The notes under the pieces are model-generated. The model was not told the origin of the DNA and made no database searches. It saw only the letters and a list, made by a program, of their open reading frames with translations. From positions 2,356,001-2,420,000 of the forward strand of contig NZ_CP033878.1 in assembly GCF_009690625.1 (NCBI RefSeq): a stretch of DNA of 64,000 nt, written 5' to 3'. The translations under genes and the position numbers were made by a program. This stretch comes from Halorhabdus sp. CBA1104. GTDB taxonomy: Archaea > Halobacteriota > Halobacteria > Halobacteriales > Haloarculaceae. Every line of letters starts with the position of its first letter. Position 1 is the stretch's first letter. This document shows positions 1-23,668 of the stretch, piece by piece.

Positions 1-338
1 TACTGCTGTGGCCACGGTGCACCCAGCGCGTCAATTAGCTCCTCCTGCCGGTTCTGCGTCAGGTCTGACGGCCAGTAATCCCGCACGTGCTCAATCGCTT
101 CGCGGAATGCCTTCGGGACGTCTGGTTGGACAGCCCGTGGGTCCGTCTGTTCCTGCCACTGGTGCCAGATGTCCTCTTTCGCGTCCTCCCACGCACCGTA
201 AACCCCCTCTTTGAAATCGGTCGGGAGTTCGCGGTCGGTATCGCGGTCACAGTCGATCCGCTGGAGGCAAGTGAGCGTGTCGTCGATTATCTCGCTCTCA
301 TCGTCGTTGGGGACGAATCGCATGAATGCTTCTTCCCC
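1..338 (-). pseudogene. Out-of-frame C-terminal continuation of the PLD-SNF2 helicase
   Basis: On the minus strand, the frame next to the helicase frame stays open from about 338 to position 1 and encodes about 112 acidic residues with haloarchaeal codon use (it begins GEEAFMRFVPNDDE). It joins the helicase sequence directly if one G is added to the four-G run (CCCC at 335-338 on the plus strand). It has no start of its own and leaves the window open. It is therefore either the true C-terminus hidden by a one-base sequencing error or the tail of a gene broken by a real frameshift. Confidence 0.75.
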
Positions 339-6100: not shown

Positions 6101-7209
6101 AAGCCTTCGTCTTCAGCGTACGCGATGAATAGAAGCCGGTAGAGCTTGATCAGCGCCATCCGGTAGGTCTCGTCCAGCTCGTCCTTCGTGGGATCCTCGA
6201 GATCGCGGGCGTCAGCGATGGCTTCTGCAAGGTCGGGAATGACGTCGTCGTAGATTCGCTCACGAAGACGTCGACCCAACTCGGCAGCGTAATCCTTCGA
6301 GTCGGCCATGATCTCGTGGAGCGACCCCTCGTCTTGGAGAGCGCCCGACGAGAACAGCAGTGATAGGTACCCGGCGTTGTCGTCAGTGAGAAGGTCAGTG
6401 TTAACCTCAACAAAGGTGTCTGTTCGACCACGAGAACCGAACCCTGCATCGGGGTTCGTCGTATACAGTCGCAGACGGCTCTCTGAACTGGCGATGACGT
6501 AGTCAAGATTCTCCTTGTCCGCTTCACTGAGTGCGTAGGATACGGGGGTCTGACCAGTGAATCGGTCCTGAGCGTGGTCGAATGACTCGTCCTCGTTCAG
6601 GAAGACCGCAACCGCTTGTTGCCGACCCTCAGTTGTGTCCTTGAGGATGTAGCTGTGGTCCTGAAGACGATCGACCTCGTAACCCAGCCCCTCAACCAAG
6701 TCGCGTCCTTCCTCGTCCAGCAACCCTTCAGCTTGACCGACTGCGTCCTCCCAATCATCCCGGTCAGGAACGCCGCTTTTCAACTCGTGTGTCGAGAGAA
6801 GCCCCTGATTGCGAAGACCGACTAGTTCTTCATCGATCTGGGCTAAGACGGCGCTGAGGAAGCGCTGTGCAGCGTGGTGGTCAGGTCGATCGAGTGCAGA
6901 TTCACAGATCCTCTCGACCTGCGAGGGCTCGAGATCACGCTTGACGTCAGGATCCTCGCCCGCAGGGCCGATGATGTCGACTGTTTGGCCGCCATCTCGA
7001 AGCACGACGACCAGGATCGGGTTGATGCGCTGGTTCCGACGGTCGGTGTAGAGTCGCTGAAGCCAGCTCTTCTGGGGCCGATCGTCACGTTCCGTGACGA
7101 CGATTTCGAGGCCGTTGGATCCTTCTCCAAGATAAAGGTCACAGTCGGTACTCACACGTTCCGATGTCCATGAGCGTGGAGTTTCGGATGTAAGGAAGGA
7201 ACGAGGCAT
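3109..7209 (-). CDS. Large N6-adenine DNA methyltransferase (Eco57I/type IIG-like)
   Basis: About 1366 residues. Motif I for S-adenosylmethionine binding (SDIAMGSGHFL) is near residue 605, and the catalytic NPPW motif of N6-adenine methylases is near 855. The region before motif I is long and could hold a nuclease or specificity part; the C-terminal third is probably target recognition. I chose the ATG at 7209 rather than the GTG at 7221 because an AT-rich TATA-like box (about 7237-7243) would place a leaderless transcript near 7209. The stop overlaps the helicase start by 4 bases, so both are one operon. The likely role is self-marking, and perhaps cutting, in a restriction-type or DISARM-like system. 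Methylase identity is firm, nuclease activity unproven. Confidence 0.85.
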   Translation of the reverse strand: MPRSFLTSETPRSWTSERVSTDCDLYLGEGSNGLEIVVTERDDRPQKSWLQRLYTDRRNQRINPILVVVLRDGGQTVDIIGPAGEDPDVKRDLEPSQVERICESALDRPDHHAAQRFLSAVLAQIDEELVGLRNQGLLSTHELKSGVPDRDDWEDAVGQAEGLLDEEGRDLVEGLGYEVDRLQDHSYILKDTTEGRQQAVAVFLNEDESFDHAQDRFTGQTPVSYALSEADKENLDYVIASSESRLRLYTTNPDAGFGSRGRTDTFVEVNTDLLTDDNAGYLSLLFSSGALQDEGSLHEIMADSKDYAAELGRRLRERIYDDVIPDLAEAIADARDLEDPTKDELDETYRMALIKLYRLLFIAYAEDEGFLPRHNPRYERRSLKAKAHELHDLREEGVEFDDQATHWDDVMELSRAIHDGHSEWSLPEYNGRLLSSDEDISEAGAKLAEIELTDEQFGPVLANLLIDESEADDIEGPVDFRNIGVREFGVIYEGLLESELSVAEQDLTVDDEGHYTPVDPTGQQELGENDSDVVVEEGEVYLHGQSGERKATGTYYTKTRFVEHLLDHSLEPALDDHLERLDRLREEEGRTAAANAFFDFRVSDIAMGSGHFLVGAVDRIENRLMKYLTRDDVHLPQVEEELDRLREAAEDAFESSEEMPEVERSQLLRRQVARRCIYGVDVNDLSTELARLSLWVHTFVPGLPLAFLDYNLTTGDSLAGIGTLDEVSDILDVDQTNLGMFMGGSSVMNDIEDAIDDLGSFADADAQQVAEARETRERIQDQLEETRAAFDILAASRIDDEIDPEVVNDDGVDLLESEEYEIAQDVLAATNPLHFPTAFPEVFNGENPGFDALLGNPPWDESTLEDKEFWARYIPGFQGKSEQKQEEAKQRLLERRPGLEAELKREKNEKRQRSTILKNGPYDGNSSGGSAPEMYIAFSWRFKHLAGDRGHVGIIVPRGAFSGDNTSDFREELFDTTTIDDLTFLVNTNEWVFEGIHGQMTISLASYHNSEEPGEKLPLRGPYYNEEEYEEGMQGDPHYFSIEDIRSWTTSSVVPLPPSDEASEAFEQLVSHPKFSYDGGDWKPVPVTPLKLAPYEDEELDDGTTLLHRSDHPPEEDFLPVLGGKAFDFWSVDVSKATVWTDPDMIFDYLQEKRENSYRIGSRSPFSEMPEDWVHDKSTLPCYSARVVFRDSTNKTNTRTVLPALAPPNVILLDTAPYLIWPRGDEKDQAFLMGIMGSIPFDWCARRFVENHVSFYLLNGLPVPRPERDSRLWSRMVELSGTLASTDERFQEWADAVGVSCTAHSKDEREEMMQEIDALSAHLYGLSRENLQVVFETFHENWDHEPRMNAVLEHYDEWADRVESEE

Positions 7210-7349
7210 TGACAAGACCACAATCTCGGGAGAGTATTATTCTTTTGTAGTTCCACAAAGCGGAACCCGGTCCTCATCAATAGCGGTATTTGGTGTGCAA
7301 CTAGACACCAAATCATTCATAGTGCTGTCACTATCTGGTTTGGATACGA
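7210..7349. promoter_or_regulatory. Divergent promoter region, methyltransferase / SbcD-like
   Basis: This 140-base gap separates the leftward methylase-helicase operon from the rightward SbcD-SbcC-like pair. It is AT-rich relative to the neighbours, with a TATA-like stretch on the minus strand near 7237-7243 and the sequence GGTGTGCAACTAGACACC at about 7291-7308, which has GGTGT/ACACC ends as an imperfect dyad. No small gene is supported here. Confidence 0.4.
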
Positions 7350-8675: not shown

Positions 8676-11555
8676 ATGCATCTGAACGACTTCCGAATCG
8701 ACGATTTCGGCTGCTTCAGAAATGCCCGGCTTGAAACACTCGATGACAACCTTATCGTTATCGGCGGTCCGCAGCGAGCCGGGAAAACGACATTCATGCA
8801 GGCGTTGCGGCAGTTCCCCGACGGGGTTGACCGGAGCGACGGCATCCCGCCGGCGACCGACGAATATCGTATCGACGCTGAACTCACGCACAATGGGAAT
8901 CGCTATCGTTACGTGCTGAACGGGCACGCGAGTCCATCCGTGTCGCCCATCGGTGATGGGCCCGAGATTGAGGCTAAAGATATCTTCGGGCCAATCACCG
9001 AGCGGCAGTACCGGAATCTCTACACGATTAGTCTCGATGAACTACGACGACTTCCACCGGGGATTGATGATTCCGAGGACCTCGCACGAATCTTACTTGG
9101 CGGAGCATACGGTGATATCGCGGATATCCCTGAAATTGAAGAAGAATTTAGCGACCAAGCGCACAAGATCGGGCTTTCGAAGGGGAATCCGAACACCAAG
9201 ACGTCGCAGCTCCATGACCCGTATCAGACCGTCAAGGACGGTATTGAGGCACGTAAAGAGGCAAGTCAGCAGGTCGACGAATACCGATCTGTCACACAAG
9301 AGCTCACCAACAAGCGGTCGGAACTAGCTGACCTCAAGAATAAGATAGAGCACCGGCAACGAACACGGGACCGGCTGAATATTCTCCAAGAGCTGTTCGA
9401 CCCCCTGCAACAGATTGAGACTTTGAACGCACGGCTTGAAGACGCCGACCAGGATTTCGTAGAGAAGTTCCCGACGCATCTAACGGATCAGCTTGAGCAC
9501 TTCGAAGAACAATTTAACGCGGCGACGACGGGGCTTACCGAGGCACAACAAGAATTCACCCAGGAGGCGTCGATCAAGACGACCGATGAGTATTACGAGT
9601 GGCTTCTCAAGCATGAGGAGGAGATTGAGTCACTCGCAGAGAATCAAAAGCTATGGGCAAAAACTGCTGAGCAACTTACCGAGCGCCGGGATCAACTCGA
9701 AACCAGAAAGAGAGATCTTGAGCGGGAGATTTCCTCCTTGTATTCGGAGTGGGACGAGTCGTTCACGCATCTCGACGAGATAGAAACAAGTGCCGTCGAC
9801 ACGGCTCAAGTCGACGATATTGTGTCTACGATAGAAGACCTTCAGGCTGAACACGATAGCTTGGAGGAATCTATCGATTCAGACCGGACGCGAAAGAGGG
9901 AACTCGAATCGGAATTGGCCGAGATGGAGGAAGAACACGAGGAAACGAAAGAAATCACAGTTTCAAAGCGTAAGCCGGCGCTTATTGCGGGGATCGCTAT
10001 CGTGGCCGGTACAGGTGTCGGGTTTGTCGCCACTCCCCTCGTTGGTGGGCTTGTTGGACTCGGAATTCTCGGTGCTGGACTGTATGCAATCGACTCGACG
10101 GTTTCCGTCGAGACGACTGTCGACGCCGATCCTTACCGAGAAGTCAAAAGTCAAGTAACGACACTCAAGGGAGACATCGAAGCCGACTCGCAGCGGCGCG
10201 CTGAACTCGAGGAAGAAATCGCCGAAAAAGAAGCAGAGCTGACCGATCTCATAACGGAATTAGGTCTTCCCGAGGAACTCCCGACAGACGACGTCCCTGA
10301 GTTTTACGAGCAAGTTGTCGAACTCGACGAGCAGATTGGTGAGTTTCGGGACGACCGGACGGAATGGGAAGAAGAAAATACAGAGTTCGCGACAGAACTC
10401 GAAGAGGTCGCATCACTACTTGCCGACGTAACGGAGGTTTCATGGACAGCTGAAGATCCGCTGACGGATACCAACGCCCTTCTCTTTACGCTCGAAGGAG
10501 TCGCGGCCGATCTCGAGTTGGCACAGGAGGTTCGACGAGCTGAAACCGAACGCGATGACTGTATTGCGGATATCGATTCTGTACTTAGCAAATGGGACGA
10601 GGAGAAGTCAGCTGGGGCCGCTACTAACGATGACCAGATTCTCCAGCATATCCAAGCATTCAAAGACGAAGCCGAACGGGTCGGACATCTCGAAGACGCA
10701 TTCGAGGAATATGAGCAACTCCAGACACAAGTCACGACACGTTTAGATACGCCCTCTGCTCGGGAAGTCTTCGAACCGCTCCGAGATGGCGACGAACCGT
10801 GGATCGACGTCGTCCAAGAGGCTGCTGCCGAGTACGCTGACACGGATGCAATTGCCGACGATATTCGGGAACAAAACAGCCAGATCGACGAAATGGAGAC
10901 TCAGCGTGAGGAATTGCGAGAAGCCTGCATCGAACTCGAACAGCGGCAGGAAGAACTTGCCTCGGAAGATGATCTGCAAGAGGCACAAGCGAAGATCGAT
11001 GAAGGCCGGGTTGAGTTCGAACGCCTCGGCGAAACCTACGCTGTCAACCGGATTGCTGAAGAGATTGTCAAGCAGCTGCACGAGCGATTGATGGCAGATG
11101 TGGTTCACTCGCTCGTCGATGATGCGAGTAGCATCTTCAGCGAGATCACGCAAGAGTACGATGGAATCGAACTGAACGGCGATATTCAGGACCTTGAATT
11201 CCGTGCGCTCCGGGAAGACAAGCCTGCCCACGGCGTTGGTGAGTTGAGTCGCGCGACTGGAGAACAACTCTTCCTGGCTGTTCGGTTAGCCCGAATCCGA
11301 CAGACGGATGTCTCGCTCCCAGTCGTACTCGATGACGCTGCTACGAACTTTGATCCTAATCATATGAGCCGCGTATTCGAAGTCATCGACCAGCTAACGG
11401 AATCGAATCAGGTGTTCTTCCTTACTTGCCATCCTGAGTGCGTCCGTATAACAGCGTCAAATGACCTCTCTGCACAGTACTGGTCACTCAATAGTGGACA
11501 GTTCACTCGGCGTGAAACTGCCGATACTTTAGAACAAACTCTATCGGCTGATTGA
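8676..11555 (+). CDS. SbcC/YhaN-like AAA ATPase with coiled coils and membrane hairpin
   Basis: 959 residues. Walker A (GGPQRAGKTTF) lies near residue 31. The ABC signature is the variant LSRATGEQL near 857, followed by Walker B and D-loop (LDDAATNFD) near 886. Long acidic coiled-coil segments fill about 170-425 and 480-830. Between them, residues about 432-475 form a strongly hydrophobic hairpin (glycine/alanine/valine-rich), as in YhaN-type proteins and unlike Rad50 with its zinc hook (no CxxC is seen). It follows the SbcD-like gene without a gap. The predicted role is an ATP-gated clamp that controls the nuclease, possibly anchored in the membrane. Confidence 0.82.
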   Translation: MHLNDFRIDDFGCFRNARLETLDDNLIVIGGPQRAGKTTFMQALRQFPDGVDRSDGIPPATDEYRIDAELTHNGNRYRYVLNGHASPSVSPIGDGPEIEAKDIFGPITERQYRNLYTISLDELRRLPPGIDDSEDLARILLGGAYGDIADIPEIEEEFSDQAHKIGLSKGNPNTKTSQLHDPYQTVKDGIEARKEASQQVDEYRSVTQELTNKRSELADLKNKIEHRQRTRDRLNILQELFDPLQQIETLNARLEDADQDFVEKFPTHLTDQLEHFEEQFNAATTGLTEAQQEFTQEASIKTTDEYYEWLLKHEEEIESLAENQKLWAKTAEQLTERRDQLETRKRDLEREISSLYSEWDESFTHLDEIETSAVDTAQVDDIVSTIEDLQAEHDSLEESIDSDRTRKRELESELAEMEEEHEETKEITVSKRKPALIAGIAIVAGTGVGFVATPLVGGLVGLGILGAGLYAIDSTVSVETTVDADPYREVKSQVTTLKGDIEADSQRRAELEEEIAEKEAELTDLITELGLPEELPTDDVPEFYEQVVELDEQIGEFRDDRTEWEEENTEFATELEEVASLLADVTEVSWTAEDPLTDTNALLFTLEGVAADLELAQEVRRAETERDDCIADIDSVLSKWDEEKSAGAATNDDQILQHIQAFKDEAERVGHLEDAFEEYEQLQTQVTTRLDTPSAREVFEPLRDGDEPWIDVVQEAAAEYADTDAIADDIREQNSQIDEMETQREELREACIELEQRQEELASEDDLQEAQAKIDEGRVEFERLGETYAVNRIAEEIVKQLHERLMADVVHSLVDDASSIFSEITQEYDGIELNGDIQDLEFRALREDKPAHGVGELSRATGEQLFLAVRLARIRQTDVSLPVVLDDAATNFDPNHMSRVFEVIDQLTESNQVFFLTCHPECVRITASNDLSAQYWSLNSGQFTRRETADTLEQTLSAD

Positions 11556-11660: not shown

Positions 11661-13862
11661 GTGTCTAGCTATCAGATGGCGTACTCTCTCAACGCGTTTG
11701 AGTTAGAAATTCCGGATATCGATGCAGACCTGTACAAACTAGACCCCCAACCATCGGATGATCCTTACCGAGTTCTCGGTCGGTTAGAGAGAAGCTTTGA
11801 GCAGCAACTTGACGGGAAAGCGCAAAAGTGGAAACAAGCGGAGGACGGAGATTGGTATATTGCCGTCATAGATGCGAGCGAGCGGAAAACCATCGAATCT
11901 CCCAGTAGTGGTACGAGTGCTACTCCTACATCGACTCACACGTTGGATCCATCGTCTTTCTGGGACCGAATGGTCCTCCAACGAGCAATCTCGGATTCTG
12001 TCCAATGGTACATGACGAATTACCAGGACTTCTGGTATCACGAGGACGCAGACGCACTATTCTATCCCTCCCCTCGCGGTAAAGTCGATGAGTATGATGT
12101 GTACACGGGATTTTCGCACAGAGTCGAATTCCAGGACAGTCCACAGTTAGTGGTGAGATCGGTTACCAAGTTCATTAGTAGTGAGTCGCTCGCAGACCGA
12201 ATCAACCGCCAAGGGATTGAGGAAGCCACAAAGAAGTATGGTGGCGAGAACTTCAGGCTTGATCGTCCTGAACCCACTAAATGTACGCTTCACGGCATCT
12301 CGACGGAGAAGAAGGTCTCGGACAAAACCATCGACTTTGGAGATGAGATGCTCTCCGTACTTGAATTTGCACAGCGGGAATACGGGAGCGAATGGGCAGA
12401 CAAGATAGACCCTGACGAACCATTAGTCCAAATCCGATTCGGGAACAGTGATCCGTACGATACCTCCCCTTCGCTGTTGAACGCATCTCCTGAAGAACTG
12501 AACCACCGCTTAACCAGTGAGGCCGCACTGTCCGCAAAAGAACGGCAAAAAGCCATTCAGAATTTCATCGGTCGAATTCACTACATTCAGGTCGAAGACG
12601 AGAAAGTGTCCGTCAGCGATGACGGAGTGAGACCAACCGAGCAGGGTGACTTCGATTACCCGGACTTAGCGTTCGGGAACGATGAGGTCCTCTCGACTGG
12701 CGCGCCAAACGCTGTGGATCCGAGCCAAGAGGTCCACCCTGGAAACTGGCGCTGGATTACCCGTGACTACCTTGAGGAGTACGGGTTCTGGGAGTCACAG
12801 AGGAAGCTATCCGAAATCGTACTCGTATATCCTGGGGGAGAAGAGACGCGGGCTGAAAACCTCTATCAAGATGTCCGGGAGAAACTCTCAGAGATCGGTG
12901 GAGTCCAAATCCGGTCCGACCCTCACCGTGTTTGCTATACTGATCAAGTGGAGTTCGACGAATGGGTGGCTGAGTTCGGCGACTCTATCGACGGCGTTCT
13001 CGGTCTTATTGAGGGCGACGGCGACGAATATTACGAAATCATCGATGCATTCGGAGGTGCACCAACCCAGTACGTGAACACATCGACCTACTCTGAACAT
13101 CGGGGGGCATCTGACGACGTCATCTTCAACACGGCTTGTGGACTCGCCGTTAAGTTGGGTGCGTACCCGTTTGGTCTCGCAAACGACCTCAATTCAGATG
13201 TGTATCTCGGGCTCAGCGTCGCTGGAGATCGATCCACAACGGCAACCGCCGTTGCTATCGACGGACGGGACGGCAGGATTCTCTACCAGACCGAAGAGCC
13301 ACTCGGTCAGGGTAGCAGCACTGTGTCAGAGGGATACCCTGCCAAGCGAATTATCCAACGGAGTCTGAAGACAGCCAGCTCAGCATTTGACCGCCCAATT
13401 GAGTCATTCGACATTCATCGGAACGGTGATTTTGGGGACGCGGAGCTAGAAACGCTATCATCAGAACTTCCTGCGCTTCAGGACCAGAAATACGTGCACA
13501 CCGATGTTTCGTGGTCAGCGGTTGAAGTCATCGAAAACCACCCATATCGGTTGTTCTCAGAACGAGGGGACCGTGCTCCGGACACGGGTGCATACGCTAA
13601 ATTAGACGACGAACACGTGTTGGTCACCACGTTCGGTGAGCCGCAGATTCACCAAGGAACACCCAAACCAGTTCTGTGTAAGAGACGAGCTGCATCTCAG
13701 GACCAGGACATCACAGCCATCGGTGAAGATGTCTTCAAGTTGTCTCTCCTGAACTGGGGCTCGCCGATGATGAAAATGAAGCCGCCGGTGACGACCAAGA
13801 TTCCGAAGGAGCTCAACGAAATTTTCGACAAGTGTAGTCGCGTTCGCTATCCGCCGTTCTGA
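11661..13862 (+). CDS. Long prokaryotic Argonaute with degenerate PIWI catalytic residues
   Basis: 733 residues from GTG 11661 (or 728 from ATG 11676). The C-terminal 300 residues are a PIWI domain and can be aligned by eye with Natronobacterium gregoryi Ago. The catalytic aspartates look replaced: GIDV becomes GLSV (Ser near 519), HRDG becomes HRNG (Asn near 588), and the final TTAYAD becomes TTKIPK (Lys near 716). A loose YPAKRII segment near 550 is all that remains at the glutamate-finger position. This is the state of long-B pAgos, which bind a guide and target and signal to a partner effector. The gene starts 105 bases after the SbcC-like gene, and its end overlaps the convergent peptidase gene by 16 bases. 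The Argonaute call is good; the inactive state is inferred from manual alignment. Confidence 0.8.
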   Translation: MSSYQMAYSLNAFELEIPDIDADLYKLDPQPSDDPYRVLGRLERSFEQQLDGKAQKWKQAEDGDWYIAVIDASERKTIESPSSGTSATPTSTHTLDPSSFWDRMVLQRAISDSVQWYMTNYQDFWYHEDADALFYPSPRGKVDEYDVYTGFSHRVEFQDSPQLVVRSVTKFISSESLADRINRQGIEEATKKYGGENFRLDRPEPTKCTLHGISTEKKVSDKTIDFGDEMLSVLEFAQREYGSEWADKIDPDEPLVQIRFGNSDPYDTSPSLLNASPEELNHRLTSEAALSAKERQKAIQNFIGRIHYIQVEDEKVSVSDDGVRPTEQGDFDYPDLAFGNDEVLSTGAPNAVDPSQEVHPGNWRWITRDYLEEYGFWESQRKLSEIVLVYPGGEETRAENLYQDVREKLSEIGGVQIRSDPHRVCYTDQVEFDEWVAEFGDSIDGVLGLIEGDGDEYYEIIDAFGGAPTQYVNTSTYSEHRGASDDVIFNTACGLAVKLGAYPFGLANDLNSDVYLGLSVAGDRSTTATAVAIDGRDGRILYQTEEPLGQGSSTVSEGYPAKRIIQRSLKTASSAFDRPIESFDIHRNGDFGDAELETLSSELPALQDQKYVHTDVSWSAVEVIENHPYRLFSERGDRAPDTGAYAKLDDEHVLVTTFGEPQIHQGTPKPVLCKRRAASQDQDITAIGEDVFKLSLLNWGSPMMKMKPPVTTKIPKELNEIFDKCSRVRYPPF

Positions 13863-15386: not shown

Positions 15387-15554
15387 ATCGACCTCCTTAC
15401 GAGCCGCGTAAGGGGCGTACGGAGCTAGCAATTCCAACGTTCAATTTGGAGTCGATAGCTCTGCTGAATCGTAACCCCGATTATGAAATCCTCCTGACGG
15501 CGTCGATTTTCCTGCGAACTTTGATAAGAATTCGCTATGTTGCCTTTTCTATTA

Positions 15555-18500
15555 ATGTCGGTATTGTCCGAGCAGGAATTGCGGACCAGATGGCAAGATC
15601 GATGGGACAGTTTTCTATCCCACGTTCGAGAAGCAGATACAGCAGAAGCTGCTCAGAATGCACTCCGGGACAAGGTAATCATCGGTAATGCTGAACGGAA
15701 AATTGCTGGCGGGCACGAAGGGCGAGAAATCCTTGAGCTACTTCAGAATGCTCGGGATGCAATCTGGCAAGGGGATGCAGAGCAGGGCCGTGTCTACGTT
15801 GGCGTCTACGACGAAGGGGTGTTAGTGGCTAATACGGGCAGCCGATTCGATCTCTTTGACCCACAAGTCGAAGACGCCGTCACGATGATCGGCGAGACCG
15901 GGAAGGGAGACGACGATCAATCCATCGGTCACAAAGGTGTCGGCCTGAAATCCATCCTCGCAACGGGTGACGCTTTTGAGATCTTCACTCGGCCGGACCA
16001 GTCTTCCGACGACATCCTTGCTGTTCAATTGAGTCGAGCATATCTCGTCGCTGCTATCCGTAATCGGCTAGGCCAGGATAGCAACATCTCGGATCTTACC
16101 GGCGATCTCGATGATGCGACTCTACAAGAGGTGCTGACAAACAGCAGTCCAGACGAGACGATTCCGCTCACAGACGGGGTTCAGGATTCAATCTCCAAAC
16201 TCCCGCTGTTCAATTTCCCGGTTCCGTTAGCTATGAACGGATCGGAGGCAGATTCCGACCCAGTTCGCTCTCGTGTTCGTGAGCTACTAACTGGCTCCTC
16301 CAGCACTTCGATTGAGAATCAGTTCCGTACTGCAGTGTTCATCCGGTACGAAGATTCTGAGTGGCGCTCACAACTATCCGATATCGGCACTTCGACTCCC
16401 GAAGAGGAGGATACTGGATCGATTGAGGATCGGCCGCAGCGGATTTGGGAGTATCTCTCTGCGACAGCAAGCGAAGATGGGCTCCAACCCGAAACGCTCG
16501 TTCAACTCGGCGGTATTGAGGAACTCACGCTTGAGCGTGCCACTGATGGCGGCAGCGATACCGTGCGCAAAGAACGGTGGGAGATCCAACGCGATTCAAG
16601 CCCGAATGTCGAGACCCCGGATCTCGCACACAGCGAAGTTGATGTCCATATACAGTCACCGGACGATACCGAAACCACCCATCGCTTCGATCAATTCCAA
16701 TTCACGAACGCCCGTCAACACCATACTACATTACTCGTGAACAAGGCTGCGGACGGTGGCTCAGTCCCAACTGCTTCGTACCCTCTCTATCTATTCTATC
16801 CGATCGAAGGAACGAGCGCAGTCGAGCTTCCGTTTTGTCTTCACGGTCGCTTCCGAGTCGAAACGAACCGTAAGGACCTCAGTTCGAACAACTTGGCGGC
16901 GAACTGGAGCGTCCTTCAGGAGGGACTAGATCTCATCGAGTTAGTTGGTGAGGAAGTTGCTATTGCTGCAACCGACCAGGATGCGCCCAGTTATAGCTCG
17001 CATCTTCCGTGGTGTCTTTTACCGTCTATTCCAGATGTCGACGAAATATCGGAACCAACGTCGAACGACGAACTGTTCGACTGGTTCCGCCTCGAACTGT
17101 TCGAGCGACTTGGGGCGACTGAATGCATCCCAACCGTGGATGGGCCACGCCAACCAGAAAATACGCTGCTCCACTGGGATAGTTCTGTCCTCGAAGGCCA
17201 GCTCGCATACCGAACGCTCGTCGACCACCTAGAGCGCTCTATAGCGACCGCTCCAGAGTCGTCACCGCTACTCACTCAGAAAGCACTGAATGCTGTCCTC
17301 GAAATCCCGTCAATGTGGCGCGAGCGTATTCAAATGCTTCTCGCGATCGAGGACGGGCAGACTGCCTCGAAGGCACTACTCGAGGCGTGGGTTGAACAAC
17401 TCGCAACCGGGCTTGCGATGCAAGATGACGATCCGCCGGCCCAGATCGTTCCCGCGGCTGCTGCCAGAACCCTCCTTCGAGGCACAGTAACTCTGCTGGC
17501 AGCTGCAACGGAAGGCGATGAATCTCTTGATGAGACCCTCACCGACCTTGGCGACAGATTCGACAGCATCTATCTCTTACCGTGTCGAATTCGCGAGGTC
17601 GACCCTGATGAAGAACTTGCGCTCGTCACAATCGAACGACGTCAAACTCCGACAGGTGGGCAGCGTACACAGCGTCGCGTTCGATCGGTGATCTGGGATA
17701 TCGAATCGACCACTCGTGATATCGAGCGCCCGCCGACGCCACCGCGAACCTCTAATATGACCGTCTATTTCCTCGATGACGTTATTCAGGAGGACGCCAC
17801 CGTTCATCACGTTCTGAGTACGGCGGGCAGGGTCTGGGGGCTCCGCGCGTACGAAGGCATTCCGAGCTTTGTCCGCTCGCTCCTCGACACGTTCGCTGAT
17901 GGGCGACACGAAACAGTCGAACCAATCGACTTCGCGTTTCTAACTGCGCTTGTTGATCGCATCGGAGCCGAATCGGACGACCTGCAGATGGGAGAAGGCG
18001 ATTTCTTCCCGCTCTCATACCTCGAAACCGCGATCACACAACAGGAAGGCGATCAGCGAGCGAATCTCCGTCGACGGGTACAGCTTCGTACCTGTGATCT
18101 CCAACTACATCGAACGCAGCCGGAACCGATTGCAGAAACCGTTCTCTCGGATGAGTGGCAGTCAGTTCGCGAGCGAGCACTCAGATCCGATGAAGAAGAG
18201 CAGGCAGATAATGACGGCGAGGTGACCGCGGATTGGACTGACGTCCCTGCAGATCAGTATCCCGCCCCGACGTGGCCGATCCCGGACACAGAGACATGGG
18301 CGACCTTTCGTGAACAGATCAAACGGGACGTTTCGGACGCTGATTTCGTCCGCGCTTTGTCTCTCCTTGGTACGGGTTCGTTGCCGGGCGTCAGCGTTCT
18401 CTGGATGTACGGTGACGACCACCCTTCGATGCGTCGGGACCACCATTGGAACCCGACGGAGTGGGGTGGTGACGATTTCACCGATTCTGTGCCTGATATC

Positions 18501-21500
18501 GTCCAAAGATTACAGACGACTCTTTCGGGGAACACAGACTATGCATCACTTCTCACCGGTGTAGAGCATCATCCGCAGGTTAGTGCCGATCATTCCCCGA
18601 AATGTAACGTCAAGACAGATGGTGAACTCTCTCAAGTAAACCTGGCCTCGTGGGTCTGGATAGATGACCCTGAACGTCTTTCTCAGCGCGCCCATGCGGT
18701 TCGAGAGGTTCTCCGCCGACACGGTGATGCACTCGTCTCGACGCTCTTGCAGACCGGCTGGTCGTGTAACAACGGCCACAAGCGACGGTCGTGGGCCTCG
18801 TCAGTCCCGAGTCTGTTGAACTGGCAGCTTCGCAGCCTCGAGATCTGGGGTCCTGTTGTTGATGTCGAAGATGAGCTCGCCGAACAGTGGGCTGAGTATA
18901 CCTCGCAGCTTCGCTTTGCCGTACGGAAGGAAAGTAGCCGTGGCGCACAGGCTGCTCGGATGTTTCCGCACGTTGACGAGGATAGCGGGTTCTCCGAGGA
19001 GCTACTCGATACGCTTGACGTTCAACCTGTGAACGACCTCGGGCCAACCGGTGCGACGAGACGGCTACAGCAGTTGCAATCTGTTCTGGTCGATGGACCA
19101 CTACCAGATGATGATCCAGCGCGTCTCTGGATTCCAGGTGAACGCATCAACGACTGGAATCAAGCGTATACTCAACTCTTACAACCGTTGGTTCGAGAGT
19201 TCCCAGACGATTCAGCGGATCAACGCGACGAACTGGACTGGGGTGCCTTGACGCACCTTCCGCTGCGTGACGGCGACCAGTGGCTGACGGCACCTATCGA
19301 GTGGATTCAGGACAATACAGATCAGATCCGCTACTATCAGGATCAGTCTCCCAAACCGTGGGAGCTGCAGACCGCCGAAGAAAACGACTACTATATTCTT
19401 CCTCGACCGAGAAGCGGGCCGTTCGTTCGGCTGGCGACAGCACTCGGAGTTGACCAACTACAGGCATCGAAGCTCGTACTCGATCTGGAGAATGATGACT
19501 TAGCCGTCGTAACTGATCAGCACACCGGCCGCGTCGCCGAGTTCCAACAGGCCTTGACGGAACGGCAGGATCTTCTCGTTGCTTCGACGGAACGATCCGA
19601 TGAGGAAGAAATCGTAGATACTGCAGAAAATCTCGCAACTGCTGCAACAAATATCGCTGTCGTAGAAGCGTTCCCCGACGATGTGCTTCGACAACTGTCA
19701 GATCCCGCATCTGCACTCTATAGGACTGACGACGGCAATGAGGCCCTCCTCCTGAATGCCGCCGAAGCCGGTGATTCACTCTCGTTGCAAGGGCTTTCAA
19801 TGGGGATCGCCCTGCTCGTCGAACGACCGACGAAAGTTGCTACCTTCCGGGAGGCACTGCGCAGCGACGTCGAGGTCGATGAACTCGAATCACGCTGGAA
19901 GAAGCGGACGTTCCCAATCGAGGCGGTCAAACAGGTGCTCGGATCGAACGCGCTTCAGTCGTTTGAACGCGATGTCGGAGCAGTCAACGATCTGCTTGAC
20001 CGGCTCGATTGCTCGTCAGTTGATGCTGATCCGCTTCTCGATGCGCTTGAGGATGCAGACTCCGATACGATCGGCTTCATCCGGGAGTGGTACGCAACGG
20101 GCGAACAACCGAATCTTGACGCCGATGTTGACCACGATCTCACAGACCTTGCTCCGACGATCCGAGAATGGATCGATGGTGTCCACGCAACACTTCCGGA
20201 CAAGCTGCAGTTCATCGCTGCGGGCCTCTTCTCCGAGACGGCTACCTATTGGGTTCGCGAACTGGAAGCACAGGACGTTGATGAAGCAACCGTAGCTGTT
20301 GTCATCAATTGGCTCGATGCTCACCGCGGGGCACTCGACCGACCACCGTTCGATAGCGATGCCAGACAAGCGTACGTGCGCCTTCGAACCGTCGCCGAAC
20401 TCTGGGAACAGACCGATCCCGCAGAACTCACTGAACTCAACACTTGGAGCGAACGACTCCGCGAACTCCACTCATCTGCGTCTCCCGAATGGTCGGATTC
20501 AATCCCCGAATCGTATGCGACAACGCTCGGTTGCCCGCCGTTCGTTGCGCACGTCAGCATCAACGACCGAATTCAGACTCTCCTTGAAACCTTCTGTGAG
20601 GACATCGACAGTAAACTGCCGGAGGTCGACTTCGACTGGGAAAGTCTCGTTATCACCTACGTTGAGGAGGAGACGATTCCGGAACCGGAAACTGATCGAG
20701 GGGCTAAGGACCATCAAGAGCGAGCGTTTGCAGATCTCGCGACAGCGATCGATACTGATGGCGAAATCGCGGGCGGGAGTTCTGATGGCTCCATAGTTCC
20801 TGAAGGCGTCGAGGTAGCTGGTACTGATAGTTCTCTCTCTGTCTCGACTGGTGGCGGCAGCGGCGGTGGGAGTACACAGTATCGCGGGCGTGGCCAGCAA
20901 GCAGAAGCGTACGTTATGGCTGGTGTCCTCGATCGAATCGCCACGTGGCTTGACGAGCATCCTGCTGGAGACATTCGCCAGTTCCGCTCCCGGTTCAAAC
21001 GGTTACATTCTAATCAGCAGGAGCGGTCATACAAATGGCACGTCGAGAACGTGTGGTCGTCCGATCTCCTCCCACTCTTGGGAGACTTAGAAGCGTTGAA
21101 TCACAGTACGATAAGCAACTGGCGAGCAGAAGTAGATGAAGATTCGTTCGCCGGGTTCCCGCTCGTTCGTCTCGTCAATGTCACAATGGAACGGGGACCA
21201 GGATTCGACGTCATCGATCCCCTTGGACCGCTTTCTGATGACGAAGGGACCGATGATTTTGGCCTCCAGTTCGTTCCCGTGGAGGTCAAAGCCGTGAACG
21301 GAACCACCCCGCCATTTAATTTCCGGCTCACAACAAACGAGTACCGTCAAGCCAAGGCATTCGTTCGGGACGGGGATATTCCGTACGTTATTCGTCTTGT
21401 CTCGGTTCCTGATGCTGGAACCCCAGATTGGCCGTCACAAACAGAAATCGCGGCAGAAAAAGTTCTGAGCACCGAAGCAGAGCTTGAAGCAGTCGTGGAG

Positions 21501-21557
21501 TCCCAACGGTTCGAGGAAGTAGTCAAAGGCGGATACATGAATATGCGGATAGAGTAG
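15555..21557 (+). CDS. Giant GHKL-ATPase protein with C-terminal DUF3883 (NO VEIN)-like nuclease fold
   Basis: 2000 residues from the ATG at 15555 (a TTG at 15537 is in frame). The N-terminus is a sacsin/Hsp90-type Bergerat ATPase: N-box ELLQNARDA near 60, G1 region (YDEG...NTG) near 90, G2 loop GHKGVGLKS near 125. The middle about 1500 residues are unassigned. A natural GGGSGGGS linker sits near 1765. The last about 130 residues resemble DUF3883, with a possible PD-(D/E)xK core (GFDVID near 1880, PVEVKAV near 1908). Proteins of this plan occur in bacterial and archaeal defence islands, where ATP-driven conformational change may release a nuclease. It stands alone in its transcription unit downstream of the divergent peptidase operon. 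Confidence 0.8.
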   Translation: MSVLSEQELRTRWQDRWDSFLSHVREADTAEAAQNALRDKVIIGNAERKIAGGHEGREILELLQNARDAIWQGDAEQGRVYVGVYDEGVLVANTGSRFDLFDPQVEDAVTMIGETGKGDDDQSIGHKGVGLKSILATGDAFEIFTRPDQSSDDILAVQLSRAYLVAAIRNRLGQDSNISDLTGDLDDATLQEVLTNSSPDETIPLTDGVQDSISKLPLFNFPVPLAMNGSEADSDPVRSRVRELLTGSSSTSIENQFRTAVFIRYEDSEWRSQLSDIGTSTPEEEDTGSIEDRPQRIWEYLSATASEDGLQPETLVQLGGIEELTLERATDGGSDTVRKERWEIQRDSSPNVETPDLAHSEVDVHIQSPDDTETTHRFDQFQFTNARQHHTTLLVNKAADGGSVPTASYPLYLFYPIEGTSAVELPFCLHGRFRVETNRKDLSSNNLAANWSVLQEGLDLIELVGEEVAIAATDQDAPSYSSHLPWCLLPSIPDVDEISEPTSNDELFDWFRLELFERLGATECIPTVDGPRQPENTLLHWDSSVLEGQLAYRTLVDHLERSIATAPESSPLLTQKALNAVLEIPSMWRERIQMLLAIEDGQTASKALLEAWVEQLATGLAMQDDDPPAQIVPAAAARTLLRGTVTLLAAATEGDESLDETLTDLGDRFDSIYLLPCRIREVDPDEELALVTIERRQTPTGGQRTQRRVRSVIWDIESTTRDIERPPTPPRTSNMTVYFLDDVIQEDATVHHVLSTAGRVWGLRAYEGIPSFVRSLLDTFADGRHETVEPIDFAFLTALVDRIGAESDDLQMGEGDFFPLSYLETAITQQEGDQRANLRRRVQLRTCDLQLHRTQPEPIAETVLSDEWQSVRERALRSDEEEQADNDGEVTADWTDVPADQYPAPTWPIPDTETWATFREQIKRDVSDADFVRALSLLGTGSLPGVSVLWMYGDDHPSMRRDHHWNPTEWGGDDFTDSVPDIVQRLQTTLSGNTDYASLLTGVEHHPQVSADHSPKCNVKTDGELSQVNLASWVWIDDPERLSQRAHAVREVLRRHGDALVSTLLQTGWSCNNGHKRRSWASSVPSLLNWQLRSLEIWGPVVDVEDELAEQWAEYTSQLRFAVRKESSRGAQAARMFPHVDEDSGFSEELLDTLDVQPVNDLGPTGATRRLQQLQSVLVDGPLPDDDPARLWIPGERINDWNQAYTQLLQPLVREFPDDSADQRDELDWGALTHLPLRDGDQWLTAPIEWIQDNTDQIRYYQDQSPKPWELQTAEENDYYILPRPRSGPFVRLATALGVDQLQASKLVLDLENDDLAVVTDQHTGRVAEFQQALTERQDLLVASTERSDEEEIVDTAENLATAATNIAVVEAFPDDVLRQLSDPASALYRTDDGNEALLLNAAEAGDSLSLQGLSMGIALLVERPTKVATFREALRSDVEVDELESRWKKRTFPIEAVKQVLGSNALQSFERDVGAVNDLLDRLDCSSVDADPLLDALEDADSDTIGFIREWYATGEQPNLDADVDHDLTDLAPTIREWIDGVHATLPDKLQFIAAGLFSETATYWVRELEAQDVDEATVAVVINWLDAHRGALDRPPFDSDARQAYVRLRTVAELWEQTDPAELTELNTWSERLRELHSSASPEWSDSIPESYATTLGCPPFVAHVSINDRIQTLLETFCEDIDSKLPEVDFDWESLVITYVEEETIPEPETDRGAKDHQERAFADLATAIDTDGEIAGGSSDGSIVPEGVEVAGTDSSLSVSTGGGSGGGSTQYRGRGQQAEAYVMAGVLDRIATWLDEHPAGDIRQFRSRFKRLHSNQQERSYKWHVENVWSSDLLPLLGDLEALNHSTISNWRAEVDEDSFAGFPLVRLVNVTMERGPGFDVIDPLGPLSDDEGTDDFGLQFVPVEVKAVNGTTPPFNFRLTTNEYRQAKAFVRDGDIPYVIRLVSVPDAGTPDWPSQTEIAAEKVLSTEAELEAVVESQRFEEVVKGGYMNMRIE

Positions 21558-21716: not shown

Positions 21717-21998
21717 TTATTCACGAGGATCTTCAATAAATTCGTACAGACCGCCTTGGTTCACTTGTCTTAGCCATCCCGCATTTCTGAGATTGCGTAG
21801 AGCGTACTCAACTTGGCCTTTATCAAGAGACGTGTTTTGACGTACATACAGCGGGTTCGCACGTCCCCAGGGATTATTTGAATCGCGGCCCCTTTTAAAT
21901 AACTCAAGGACTATCTCTTCTCGTTCGTTTGGGTCGTATTGCTCGTTGACCATCTCTTGTTTGTGTCTCGTTGGTCCTGAGATATAATACTCAATCAT
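21717..21998 (-). CDS. Small winged-helix DNA-binding protein
   Basis: 93 residues. The middle (NPLYVRQNTSLDKGQVEYAL...GWLRQVNQGGLYEF) has the length and pattern of a winged helix-turn-helix of the PhiH1-repressor type, with a recognition helix followed by a wing ending in an aromatic Tyr-Glu-Phe strand. It is divergent from the micro-operon at 22071, and the 73 bases between contain two copies of a palindrome. It is therefore the likely local repressor of that operon and of itself. DNA binding is inferred from fold only. Confidence 0.65.
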   Translation of the reverse strand: MIEYYISGPTRHKQEMVNEQYDPNEREEIVLELFKRGRDSNNPWGRANPLYVRQNTSLDKGQVEYALRNLRNAGWLRQVNQGGLYEFIEDPRE

Positions 21999-22022
21999 AT
22001 TTTTGCGACCAGATCAAGGAGG

Positions 22023-22055
22023 TTGCTTAGCATTTTGCTTAGCAAAAGTTAAATA
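22023..22055. promoter_or_regulatory. Twin operator-like palindromes and TATA box
   Basis: A perfect palindrome with 7-base arms, TTTTGCT-T-AGCAAAA, covers 22033-22047. A second copy of its core, TGCT-T-AGCA, is at 22024-22032, centre to centre 12 bases away, about one helical turn. The TATA-like GTTAAATA at 22048-22055 follows directly. Such an arrangement fits two repressor dimers on one DNA face blocking the TATA box. The divergent winged-helix gene begins 25 bases to the left. Confidence 0.6.
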
Positions 22056-22070
22056 CCCTCGTCACTATAG

Positions 22071-22160
22071 ATGAGCCTGAGGAGTGCGGGACATGGTCAA
22101 GATATGGCCGGGCGTGTTGGAGCACGCCAGACCGCGCTTCGCCGCCTAGACGAAGCATGA
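22071..22160 (+). CDS. Possible 29-residue leader peptide or small protein
   Basis: ATG 22071 opens a 29-codon frame (starting MSLRSAGHGQ) that ends in ATGA, overlapping the next gene. The composition is arginine-rich and not acidic, unlike normal haloarchaeal proteins. The start is only about 19 bases from the TATA centre, slightly too close for a leaderless transcript; an internal in-frame ATG at 22104 is an alternative. Its only support is the exact overlap with the next start. It may be just the leader of the operon. Confidence 0.3.
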   Translation: MSLRSAGHGQDMAGRVGARQTALRRLDEA

Positions 22161-22330
22161 CTAACTCACAGACTAAATCCAAAGAAGCTGTCGGACAGCC
22201 CCCTGACAAGCAGAGTGGTTCGTTGCTCATTCCTCTGCAAGTGTGCAGTATTGACAATACATTCAATCTGTCCATAGATTGCCTTCTAGACCCTTCTCAG
22301 CTAGCTGACTTGGCTGGGGGATCCATCTAA
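22157..22330 (+). CDS. 57-residue protein, first firm gene of the micro-operon
   Basis: A 57-residue frame (begins MTNSQTKSKE, ends DLAGGSI). Its ATG overlaps the preceding frame as ATGA and its stop overlaps the next ATG (TAATG), so translation is coupled on both sides. The N-terminal third is polar and probably disordered; the rest has alternating hydrophobic residues. No family is recognised. Conserved overlaps make it a likely real gene; its role may be an accessory or regulatory peptide for the downstream nuclease. Confidence 0.5.
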   Translation: MTNSQTKSKEAVGQPPDKQSGSLLIPLQVCSIDNTFNLSIDCLLDPSQLADLAGGSI

Positions 22331-23004
22331 TGACGCGGTTTCATAATCCGGTTCTTGCTCGTTGCACCAGCATTCTTGAGCCAATTGACTGCGTTGAGTC
22401 TGCAGTCGTTCAAACGAACCGGCGGGATCTCGACGGCCAGTGTGCTGAAATACGTATTAACCCGGAGTCGGGCCGCGCAACTATTCCACCGGAGGTGACT
22501 GCTATCATCGCCCGTCTTGGGTTGGCAGTGAGAGAAGTCGCTCCACGACCGCAGAATTACCTCCGGTGTACAGTTGTCCCCTGTGATGCTCCTCGAAAGT
22601 CAACGCCGACGCCAGAGGAAGCAGCGAGTAACCACCCAGATGGTACGCCAGAACACATTACGCATCCAGAGCTCTTGTGTACGCCGGCGACGACCGTCAC
22701 CCCGACATCCGGTGAAACAACTGGATCACTCGAGGTAGCCCGTGATTCAACGGGCCGACCGACGATCAACTGCCACATCAAAACCAGCGAAGTTACTACA
22801 ACCGCCGACTTGCGACCCGCAGAATCGTGGAAGGTAGCTAACGCTCTCACAACGGCAGCACTCCGCGTCACGACATCCAACACTCGCCCTATCGGCAACC
22901 ACCTCGACTGTTCTACAGACACCAACGCAGAACCGTCAGAGACCCCGAACTCCGACCAGAACCCTACGAACCGGAATTCCACTGGAGATGATCACAATGC
23001 GTGA
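22330..23004 (+). CDS. Hypothetical protein with disordered Thr/Asn-rich C-terminus
   Basis: 224 residues. Residues about 35-75 look like a small folded beta-rich domain (EIRINPESGRATIPPEV). From about residue 80 the sequence is Thr/Pro/Ser/Asn-rich and low in hydrophobics. It has six cysteines, some spaced so that they could bind metal. The start overlaps the previous stop by one base, and its stop overlaps the best start of the nuclease gene (ATGCGTGA). I recognise no family. Its place in the operon suggests a dedicated partner of the nuclease. Confidence 0.6.
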   Translation: MTRFHNPVLARCTSILEPIDCVESAVVQTNRRDLDGQCAEIRINPESGRATIPPEVTAIIARLGLAVREVAPRPQNYLRCTVVPCDAPRKSTPTPEEAASNHPDGTPEHITHPELLCTPATTVTPTSGETTGSLEVARDSTGRPTINCHIKTSEVTTTADLRPAESWKVANALTTAALRVTTSNTRPIGNHLDCSTDTNAEPSETPNSDQNPTNRNSTGDDHNA

Positions 23005-23668
23005 CGACGAACTGGACCCTGACCGAGACACAACGCCTGGGCGTGGTCAAGGCCACGGTGAATGGCTCGAAATACGTCTCCAGCAAGCACTTGAAGAATG
23101 GGGGTACGGCACCGCCCGTCGAAAATCAATCATCGTGATGACGGCCGATGTCATCGCCCGCCGTAAGGGATCCAACGATGATCCGGCCGATTTCATCATC
23201 GCTGAGTGTAAAGACTGGCAGGACCGGCCAATTGACGACTCAGTCATCATTCGACTGTGTCTCCTCGCGTTCATGGGTCGTGCGATGCCTGTGCTTTGTC
23301 ACACGTCACGGCTGACTGACCGCGCATGGGAACTCGCACAGGCCTACGATGTCCGCTTGCTCACACTCGAAGACCTTGAGAAGGACCAGCTCCCCGCCTT
23401 GACCAAGCGACGCCCCCCACGTAATGCGGACGTCCACCGGTCGTCGACTAGCCCGAGAGCGCTTCGGACGACCCCGCCCACGATTCTTCAGCGACTCCAA
23501 GATGACCCTCCGGACGTCGACATTGAAGCCCCGGTTTACGACAGGACTGTAACTGCACCATGTTATGTGCCTGATCGGACAGACCATGGCCGATACGAAG
23601 ATACAAACCTCGACCGGTACCGTCGACGAGAGCGCTTGAAACGGGATACCCAGCCTGACGACGAATAG
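22997..23668 (+). CDS. Mrr-like restriction endonuclease (PD-(D/E)xK fold)
   Basis: 223 residues from ATG 22997 (22988 gives three more). The nuclease core is at the N-terminus: GHGEWLEIRLQQALEEWGYG is a typical first helix, TADVIARR gives the metal-binding Asp, and AECKDW gives the E-x-K pair. It is close to the Mrr_cat pattern, where the same fold cleaves methylated DNA. The C-terminal 80 residues are Arg/Asp/Pro-rich and probably flexible. It is the last of at least three genes joined by overlapping stop/start codons and is likely under the divergent winged-helix repressor. Substrate (methylated DNA, foreign DNA or recombination intermediates) is unknown. Confidence 0.7.
   Translation: MRDDELDPDRDTTPGRGQGHGEWLEIRLQQALEEWGYGTARRKSIIVMTADVIARRKGSNDDPADFIIAECKDWQDRPIDDSVIIRLCLLAFMGRAMPVLCHTSRLTDRAWELAQAYDVRLLTLEDLEKDQLPALTKRRPPRNADVHRSSTSPRALRTTPPTILQRLQDDPPDVDIEAPVYDRTVTAPCYVPDRTDHGRYEDTNLDRYRRRERLKRDTQPDDE

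Follow-up and report, generated by a model that had tools for sequence, protein, structure and literature searches.

A structured leader RNA ahead of an Mrr-type nuclease operon in Halorhabdus and its counterparts in haloviral control regions

The 2.63-Mb, single-contig genome of Halorhabdus sp. CBA1104 includes, within the stretch of 64,000 nucleotides analysed here (the window), a compact group of overlapping frames that ends in a gene for an Mrr-like nuclease and is preceded by a divergent regulator-like gene. An earlier note on this DNA likened the layout to a controlled nuclease module with antidote or guide proteins, and the question is which part of this arrangement is the unit that recurs in other genomes. 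The features of the locus, in window coordinates, are the following.

21717-21998, minus strand: winged-helix-like regulator P0005, 93 aa, presumed repressor, divergent from the operon
22023-22047, no strand assigned: putative operator (binding predicted only), TTGCTTAGCA beside the near-palindrome TTTTGCTTAGCAAAA, abutting the TATA box
22048-22055, plus strand: TATA-like box GTTAAATA, its centre about 25 nt ahead of the first base of the modelled RNA
22071-22160: 29-aa frame, ATG at 22071
22077-22159, plus strand: structured 5'-leader RNA, 82 nt, ending in the ATG at 22157-22159
22157-22330, plus strand: 57-aa first frame, whose start codon is the ATG closing the leader RNA; ATGA joint to the 29-aa frame
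22330-23004, plus strand: 224-aa partner frame, Thr/Pro-rich; TAATG joint to the 57-aa frame
22988-23668, plus strand: Mrr-family PD-(D/E)xK nuclease, 226 aa (223 aa if begun at the in-frame ATG 22997); ATGCGTGA overlap with the 224-aa frame

Conservation of the frames

The frames and the overlaps that join them are all present as the earlier note described them. The 29-aa frame, nevertheless, is almost certainly not a gene because its ATG lies upstream of the predicted transcription start of the operon (about 22077-22081) and its DNA is that of a covarying RNA. The claim that the operon ends in a nuclease holds: the protein reaches the Pfam Mrr_cat profile (PF04471) with 21.2 bits, just over the cut-off of 21, and 8 of the 15 members of its family match this profile at E<=0.01 (best E 1e-7). 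The active-site pattern D...(E/Q)xK, with E or Q two residues ahead of K, is present; D54 and K75 are invariant in 15 aligned homologues and E73 is replaced by Q in some, these three positions being what we take to be the PD-(D/E)xK active site. A profile search against PDB sequences gave no solved relative at E<=0.1, and the AlphaFold model, built from two sequences, has a mean pLDDT of 45, too low for conclusions on the fold. The protein shares its nuclease domain and residues with the Mrr-family restriction endonucleases (PF04471) and differs from them as a standalone domain with a partner gene and RNA-led control.

The small frames are a different case. The 57-aa frame is not conserved: in 135 genomes of the family, its own copy is the only convincing match, the other 6 being weak (E 0.01-0.1), and among the first ORFs of 122 leader-bearing loci no relatives were found except in the window itself. 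These two surveys are the basis of this result; the ORF set used for comparing the window with two other loci (G384 and L049, discussed below) omits ORFs that overlap longer ones, including the 57-aa frame. Of the 391 genomes of the class, 11 contain a match to the 224-aa frame (E<=0.01), and beyond the window two relatives were accepted. The one in the genome G384 is of full length, with 89% identity, and is the only such case in the 390 other genomes, whereas the one in Halohasta (G283) covers the C-terminal half (31% identity, E 2e-5) and is encoded directly before a nuclease gene; the remaining matches are weak (E 1e-4 to 0.01), and a nuclease neighbourhood was seen for none of them. Residues from about 92 to 206 of the 224-aa protein resemble the protein encoded before the Mrr-type gene in Halohasta and, weakly, in Halorubrum; in a three-sequence comparison, the former scores 30 bits with the C-terminal half of the 224-aa protein, and the protein from Halorubrum lacusprofundi pHLAC01 scores 14.8 bits with the 224-aa protein. 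Relatives of the nuclease occur in 54 of the 391 genomes (E<=0.01) and convincing relatives of the 224-aa protein in 3, its own genome included; therefore, the four parts of the micro-operon are not conserved as a unit.

The antidote role proposed in the earlier note, in which the 57- and 224-aa proteins would neutralise the nuclease, is in keeping with the tight frame overlaps and with the resemblance of part of the 224-aa protein to proteins encoded beside Mrr-type genes elsewhere. In type II toxin-antitoxin systems, however, the antitoxin is conserved together with the toxin, whereas most of the nuclease relatives lack a relative of the 224-aa protein and the first frame after the same leader changes from locus to locus. 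As the note had stated, the two small proteins are without a known family, and the failure of the family searches to return a match for either of them also counts against this role, which we regard as the least likely of the readings considered in this work.

The locus in G384 and the window are 92% identical over 1874 bp, with protein identities of 97% for the nuclease and 89% for the 224-aa partner, which supports the status of both frames as genes. The G384 regulator is just 55% identical to that of the window, and the ORFs between the leader and the partner are unlike those in the window. As far as sequence comparison goes, G384 shows modularity, with nearly the same nuclease and partner placed under a diverged regulator and behind other ORFs.

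Regulator, promoter and leader RNA

The regulator P0005 has weak HTH matches in Pfam and nothing stronger. It matches proteins in 94 of the 391 genomes at E<=0.001, those on plasmids often annotated as 'MarR family', and is 47.7% identical to the 'HTH domain protein' of the halovirus ChaoS9. The note's 'dedicated repressor' is borne out in that the nuclease operon adjoins its own divergent regulator-like gene, the repressor role being presumed. In front of the leader, TTAAATA is located at 22049-22055, and when 117 upstream regions are aligned at the first base of the RNA, the A+T fraction is 0.94-0.98 at positions -26 to -24; because the TATA box is at this fixed distance, the leader appears to be the complete 5' UTR. 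A site within 3 changes of CATTTTGCTTAGCAAAA precedes the leader in 19 of 43 loci. In a survey of 122 leader instances (46 from A3, the 60 best of the 391-genome list and 16 viral or plasmid loci, a non-random set with some near-identical copies), a P0005-like regulator is encoded upstream in 47. A divergent ORF of at least 50 aa, which near a leader can be a chance occurrence, is found upstream in 99 instances and is missing within 700 nt in the other 23.

The leader came to light when positions 21720-22168 of the window were found to be 66% identical to the locus L049 (genome G133) across the regulator and the 29-aa stretch, although the downstream genes in L049 are unlike those in the window. 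Searching the class with the regulator provided 40 loci for comparison, in 38 of which the leader was found by the covariance model; in L120 it was recognized by eye only, and L124 lacks it. With the model R2 at E<=1, 41 of 43 candidate loci match (16 of these are in the model; L094 and L127 are weak) and L120 and L124 do not. The leader of the window scores 51.6 bits (E 4e-10) with R2 and, in a search of its own genome, 55.6 bits (E 2e-10) with R3; it belongs to the training sets of both models, and the E-values are rough. The leader comes after the promoter, its 3' end being the start codon of a first ORF that varies greatly between loci. Thus, of the 'guide' suggested in the earlier note, the part that stands is that an RNA exists; this RNA, however, is the 5' leader lying under the 29-aa frame, and the same leader is present in viruses and in operons where no Mrr nuclease was seen.

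The fold of the leader is a three-way junction of the helices P1, P2 and P3 together with a hairpin, P4, in competition with P1 for a shared strand. In the window, P1 pairs 22081-22089 with 22132-22140, followed by P2 and P3, and P4 pairs 22136-22141 with 22151-22156, positions 22136-22140 being common to P1 and P4 (coordinates assigned by hand). Alignment A1 consists of 36 of the 43 candidate leaders; it omits L124 (no RNA), L100 and L101 (copies of L099), L086, L115 and L116 (all three the same as L114), and L093, although the leader of the last is detected by the covariance model. Applied to a plain MAFFT alignment of these 36 sequences, RNAalifold predicts P1 and P3; two-sided changes occur in 11 of 12 pairs, and the covariation is 0.359, compared to 0.200 for shuffled alignments and at most 0.139 for slid partners. 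In the model-fitted alignment, which includes P2, 20 of 23 pairs are two-sided and the covariation is 0.434 (shuffled, 0.149; slid, at most 0.076); the support for P2 derives from this structure-fitted alignment.

The hold-out set A6 comprises 51 of 60 fetched loci, none of them in any model (2 of the omitted loci are already in A3, and the others are near-duplicates or of odd length). In these 51 leaders, P1 is recovered, with 7 of 9 pairs double-changed, and RNAalifold draws neither P2 nor P3. The covariation of P4 in this set is 0.286 (shuffled, 0.094; slid, no more than 0.078), and its inner columns, which lie outside P1, alternate between GC, UA and CG; its count of pair types is no better than in shuffled alignments (295 of 500 shuffles reach it). 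In P1, there are 30 G-U cells vs. 4 A-C cells (shuffled, 42 vs. 14). The ratio runs in the opposite direction in P4, with 6 G-U cells vs. 25 A-C cells, so that the argument for the sense strand is clear for P1 alone. Collectively, the alignments support a structured leader RNA, with evidence for P1 and P3 from the unfitted alignment and for P1 and P4 from the hold-out set.

The excess of A-C cells in P4 would be compatible with an element that works as DNA, i.e., a recombination or operator site for payload exchange, and so would the variation of the payload after the same leader and the fact that the window and G384 have nearly identical payloads but diverged control regions. Given that the element is locked to the TATA spacing and to the ATG, that P1 favours G-U over A-C, and that the annotated start of the T4 transcript of the halovirus phiH falls exactly at the element, this explanation seems very unlikely.

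Across 100 leader instances, the P4 arms score 14.7 with their own partner and 11.6+-0.2 (s.d.) with swapped partners. In 86 of the 100 instances, the overlap of P4 with the 3' arm of P1 is 3 nt or longer, and in 73 P4 ends 0-1 nt ahead of the ATG, counts that are biased in favour of P4 since in the 60 fetched loci the ATG was chosen behind the best hairpin. Because P4 overlaps the 3' strand of P1, the two helices are mutually exclusive; P1 is more stable than P4 in 93 of the 100 instances, on average by 4.8 kcal/mol. Another hairpin, P5, located after the start codon and apparently conserved by eye, was discarded, its folding energy being barely better than that of shuffled sequences (mean z -0.23 and -0.12 for two segments, n=100). 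Among the same 100 instances, the loops of P3 are of few types, two of which, CTGGAA and TTCCAG, are mutually reverse-complementary; these could mediate loop-loop contacts between RNA types.

Distribution and haloviral counterparts

The leader is widespread among haloarchaea. At E<=0.01, the model R3 detects it in 242 of the 391 genomes, which represent 74 of the 86 genera, and a single genome can hold as many as 8 copies; of 294 genomes drawn from the phylum, 29 matched, all from a single order (the share of the draw outside this order is not stated). The Halorhabdus genome itself carries a second, weaker copy (C1:37826-37921, L162; 26.4 bits) that precedes a different small protein. The structure, position and distribution of the leader are matters of observation. 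No Rfam 15 family covers the leader in the seven loci and the part of the window that were scanned. A literature search returned no published description of this RNA, with most subscription papers, including the originals on phiH T4, outside its range. The leader RNA class, its breadth and its tie to defence-type payloads therefore appear to be new, whereas the control architecture is already known from phiH.

In the haloviruses ChaoS9 (E 6e-8) and HJTV-4 (E 2e-10), copies of the leader are located between an HTH gene and a divergent operon. Altogether, 74 viral-contig stretches preselected by the P1 pattern yielded 13 matches of at least 39 bits in 12 contigs, one of which is apparently ChaoS9 again. 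The annotated start of ChaoS9_315 (L223:4275-4880) takes in the structured leader; translation probably begins instead at the ATG that closes the RNA. In the available portion of the ChaoS9 genome paper, no RepR homologue is reported (PMC6471424).

The record of phiH1 places the start of the early lytic transcript T4, which is divergent from repR, at L312:2057. The 90 nt from this annotated start fold into a 16-bp P1, P2 and P3 (-45 kcal/mol), and the first base of the leader fold (L312:2057-2140) is the annotated T4 start itself. A similar P1/P2/P3 fold precedes ORF49 of phiCh1, for which no start is annotated. To our knowledge, phiH T4 is the only case in which the start of such a leader has been mapped experimentally. 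Both leaders score only about 9-10 bits with the covariance model, and BLASTP produced no alignment of the window regulator with phiH RepR, so that the link to phiH and phiCh1 is one of fold and position. The T1 leader of phiH, a region that carries the annotation of the antisense RNA, did not reveal the three-way-junction fold by eye.

The immunity region of phiH and phiCh1 (RepR or Rep, divergent from T4 or ORF49) has in common with the window a small divergent HTH regulator and a P1/P2/P3 leader that begins at +1, a position that is predicted in the window and annotated in phiH. It differs in the payload, which consists of replication genes in the viruses and of the nuclease pair in the window, and in the regulator, given that BLASTP aligns the window protein not with phiH RepR and that the protein is instead 47.7% identical to the HTH protein of ChaoS9. 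According to the accessible part of one report, Rep switches T4 off at its promoter (PMC4284463). The portions available of this and two other papers make no mention of the leader fold (PMC6210493, PMC6471424, PMC4284463).

The phiH record also bears on the possibility that the leader is primarily an element of processing or stability, with the 5'-terminal P1 blocking 5' exonucleases, cleavage after P4 producing a leaderless mRNA, and switching being secondary. Both leaderless translation and 5' exonucleases occur in haloarchaea, P4 typically ends at or next to the ATG, 8 nt separate the start of the phiH transcript T5 from the first ORF, and T4' is recorded as arising by cleavage. T5 is, however, annotated with its own start, and the sharing of a strand by P1 and P4 is not required by processing alone. 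We consider a primary role in processing unlikely and favour a two-state leader, the reading suggested by the shared strand of P4 and P1 and supported by the covariation of both helices.

Payloads and the proposed control mechanism

The genes that follow the leader are diverse. In the 4.5 kb downstream of the 122 surveyed leaders, a Cas5-like family (h311) is present in 22 cases and a Cas7-like family (h399) in 19; the Cas5-like members are Cmr3-like in 7 of 7 (best E 8.5e-9), and the Cas7-like ones are Csm3-like in the 3 checked. Against PDB sequences, the Cas5-like profile retrieved Csm4 alone, and not significantly (E 0.28). Mrr-type genes follow 6 of the 122 leaders, three of them encoding the same protein, and the family HNH321, named by eye, follows another 6. 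There is one clear restriction-methylation protein (L217), other cargo recognized by eye includes small zinc-type proteins and, in viral contigs, Orc1-like ATPases, and 31 of the 122 instances have none of the query families. In L049 (12751-17700), genes for a Cas7-like protein, an unknown protein, a Cas5-like protein, a fragment of a 950-aa-type protein and an Mrr nuclease all follow one leader. On the plasmid pNRC200 of Halobacterium salinarum NRC-1, a copy of the leader (L224:3720-3807) precedes a Cas5-like gene. These observations indicate that the recurring unit is the regulator-operator-RNA set, whereas the payload is exchangeable.

We know of no CRISPR array associated with HRAMP. The system is described, in the accessible part of the source, as a combination of Cas5 and Cas7 homologues with nucleases, and the title of one of the references therein also refers to HRAMP without a CRISPR array (PMC8730458). 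HRAMP-like operons share the leader and the regulator with the window, and the one in L049 also holds an Mrr nuclease. The window operon itself was considered as an HRAMP and rejected because no Cas5- or Cas7-like gene is among its products.

The frequency of Cas5- and Cas7-like genes behind the leader brings up the possibility of a trans-acting RNA that serves the payload as guide, scaffold or antitoxin, in HRAMP-type Cas5/Cas7 complexes for instance. The same RNA, however, precedes unrelated cargo (HNH-like, restriction-methylation, Orc1-like and small zinc-type proteins) and is present in viruses, and no variable guide-like segment was seen in it. In addition, scans of the viral contigs, although of limited sensitivity, confirmed no homologue of the nuclease or of the Cas5-like family. 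A function in trans appears improbable. The same scans, with the same limitation, confirmed no homologue of the 224-aa protein.

Judging by the features of the locus, we consider it reasonably probable that a repressor-operator-riboregulator module of the halovirus type controls the nuclease cassette in the window. The winged-helix regulator would bind the palindrome on the TATA box and shut the promoter. When the promoter is free, transcription would begin at the first bases of the 82-nt RNA, which would make up the whole 5' UTR and would fold as the three-way junction closed by P1 at its extreme 5' end. P4, formed with the middle strand that P1 also uses and usually ending just before the start codon, would be the alternative, and the P1 form, being generally the more stable, would be the default state. 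The switch most likely gates the translation or the processing of the downstream message. The payload, a partner protein and an Mrr-type DNA nuclease, would remain silent as long as the switch is not disturbed by infection or by another mobile element. The action of the RNA and its trigger we infer from the fold and the context of the leader; the nature of the trigger and the sign of the regulation are guesses. Riboswitches and 5'-UTR attenuators similarly contain two mutually exclusive helices, one of them beside the start codon, whereas the leader has no known ligand, precedes payloads of the mobile or defence type, and is outside Rfam 15 where scanned.

A further, speculative step, which we consider doubtful, is that the RNA switch between lysis and lysogeny in temperate haloviruses was taken over by defence-type cassettes (HRAMP-like, Mrr, HNH-like and restriction-methylation) and serves them as an infection sensor. 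If so, a virus that flips its own early leader would also turn the defence operon on, and a single undescribed class of RNA would be the common trigger of many defence payloads. Apart from this conjecture, the leader is a widespread, apparently undescribed haloarchaeal structured RNA, whose fold and position tie it to the classic immunity region of phiH; defence-type operons gain a shared, testable control logic, and the leader is a place to seek the RNA partner or the trigger of HRAMP.

Several additional observations pertain to the gene neighbourhoods. In five loci (L046, L047, L048, L049 and L050), a tandem series of nuclease copies, broken or C-terminal only, comes after the nuclease gene, interspersed with what by eye appear to be toxin-antitoxin genes, an array of gene remnants. 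A protein of 930-990 aa (L171:2239-5220), with relatives in L045-L048, L050 and L214, is encoded before the Mrr-type gene in L045-L048 and L050; in L171 and L214, no nuclease was seen near it in the surveyed stretch. The L171 member matches a CARF model (E 1.7e-7) and those in L047 and L048 weakly match HVO_A0261_N/DUF6293_C, so this protein is a possible sensor of a nucleotide signal. Upstream of the operon, at 287-21557 of the window, PADLOC identifies a series of defence-type genes: a Snf2-type helicase (287-3112), a type IIG restriction-methylation enzyme (3109-7221), an LmuB/DndD-like protein (8676-11555), a PprPIWI pAgo (11661-13862) and a 2006-aa TmtA-like protein (15537-21557).
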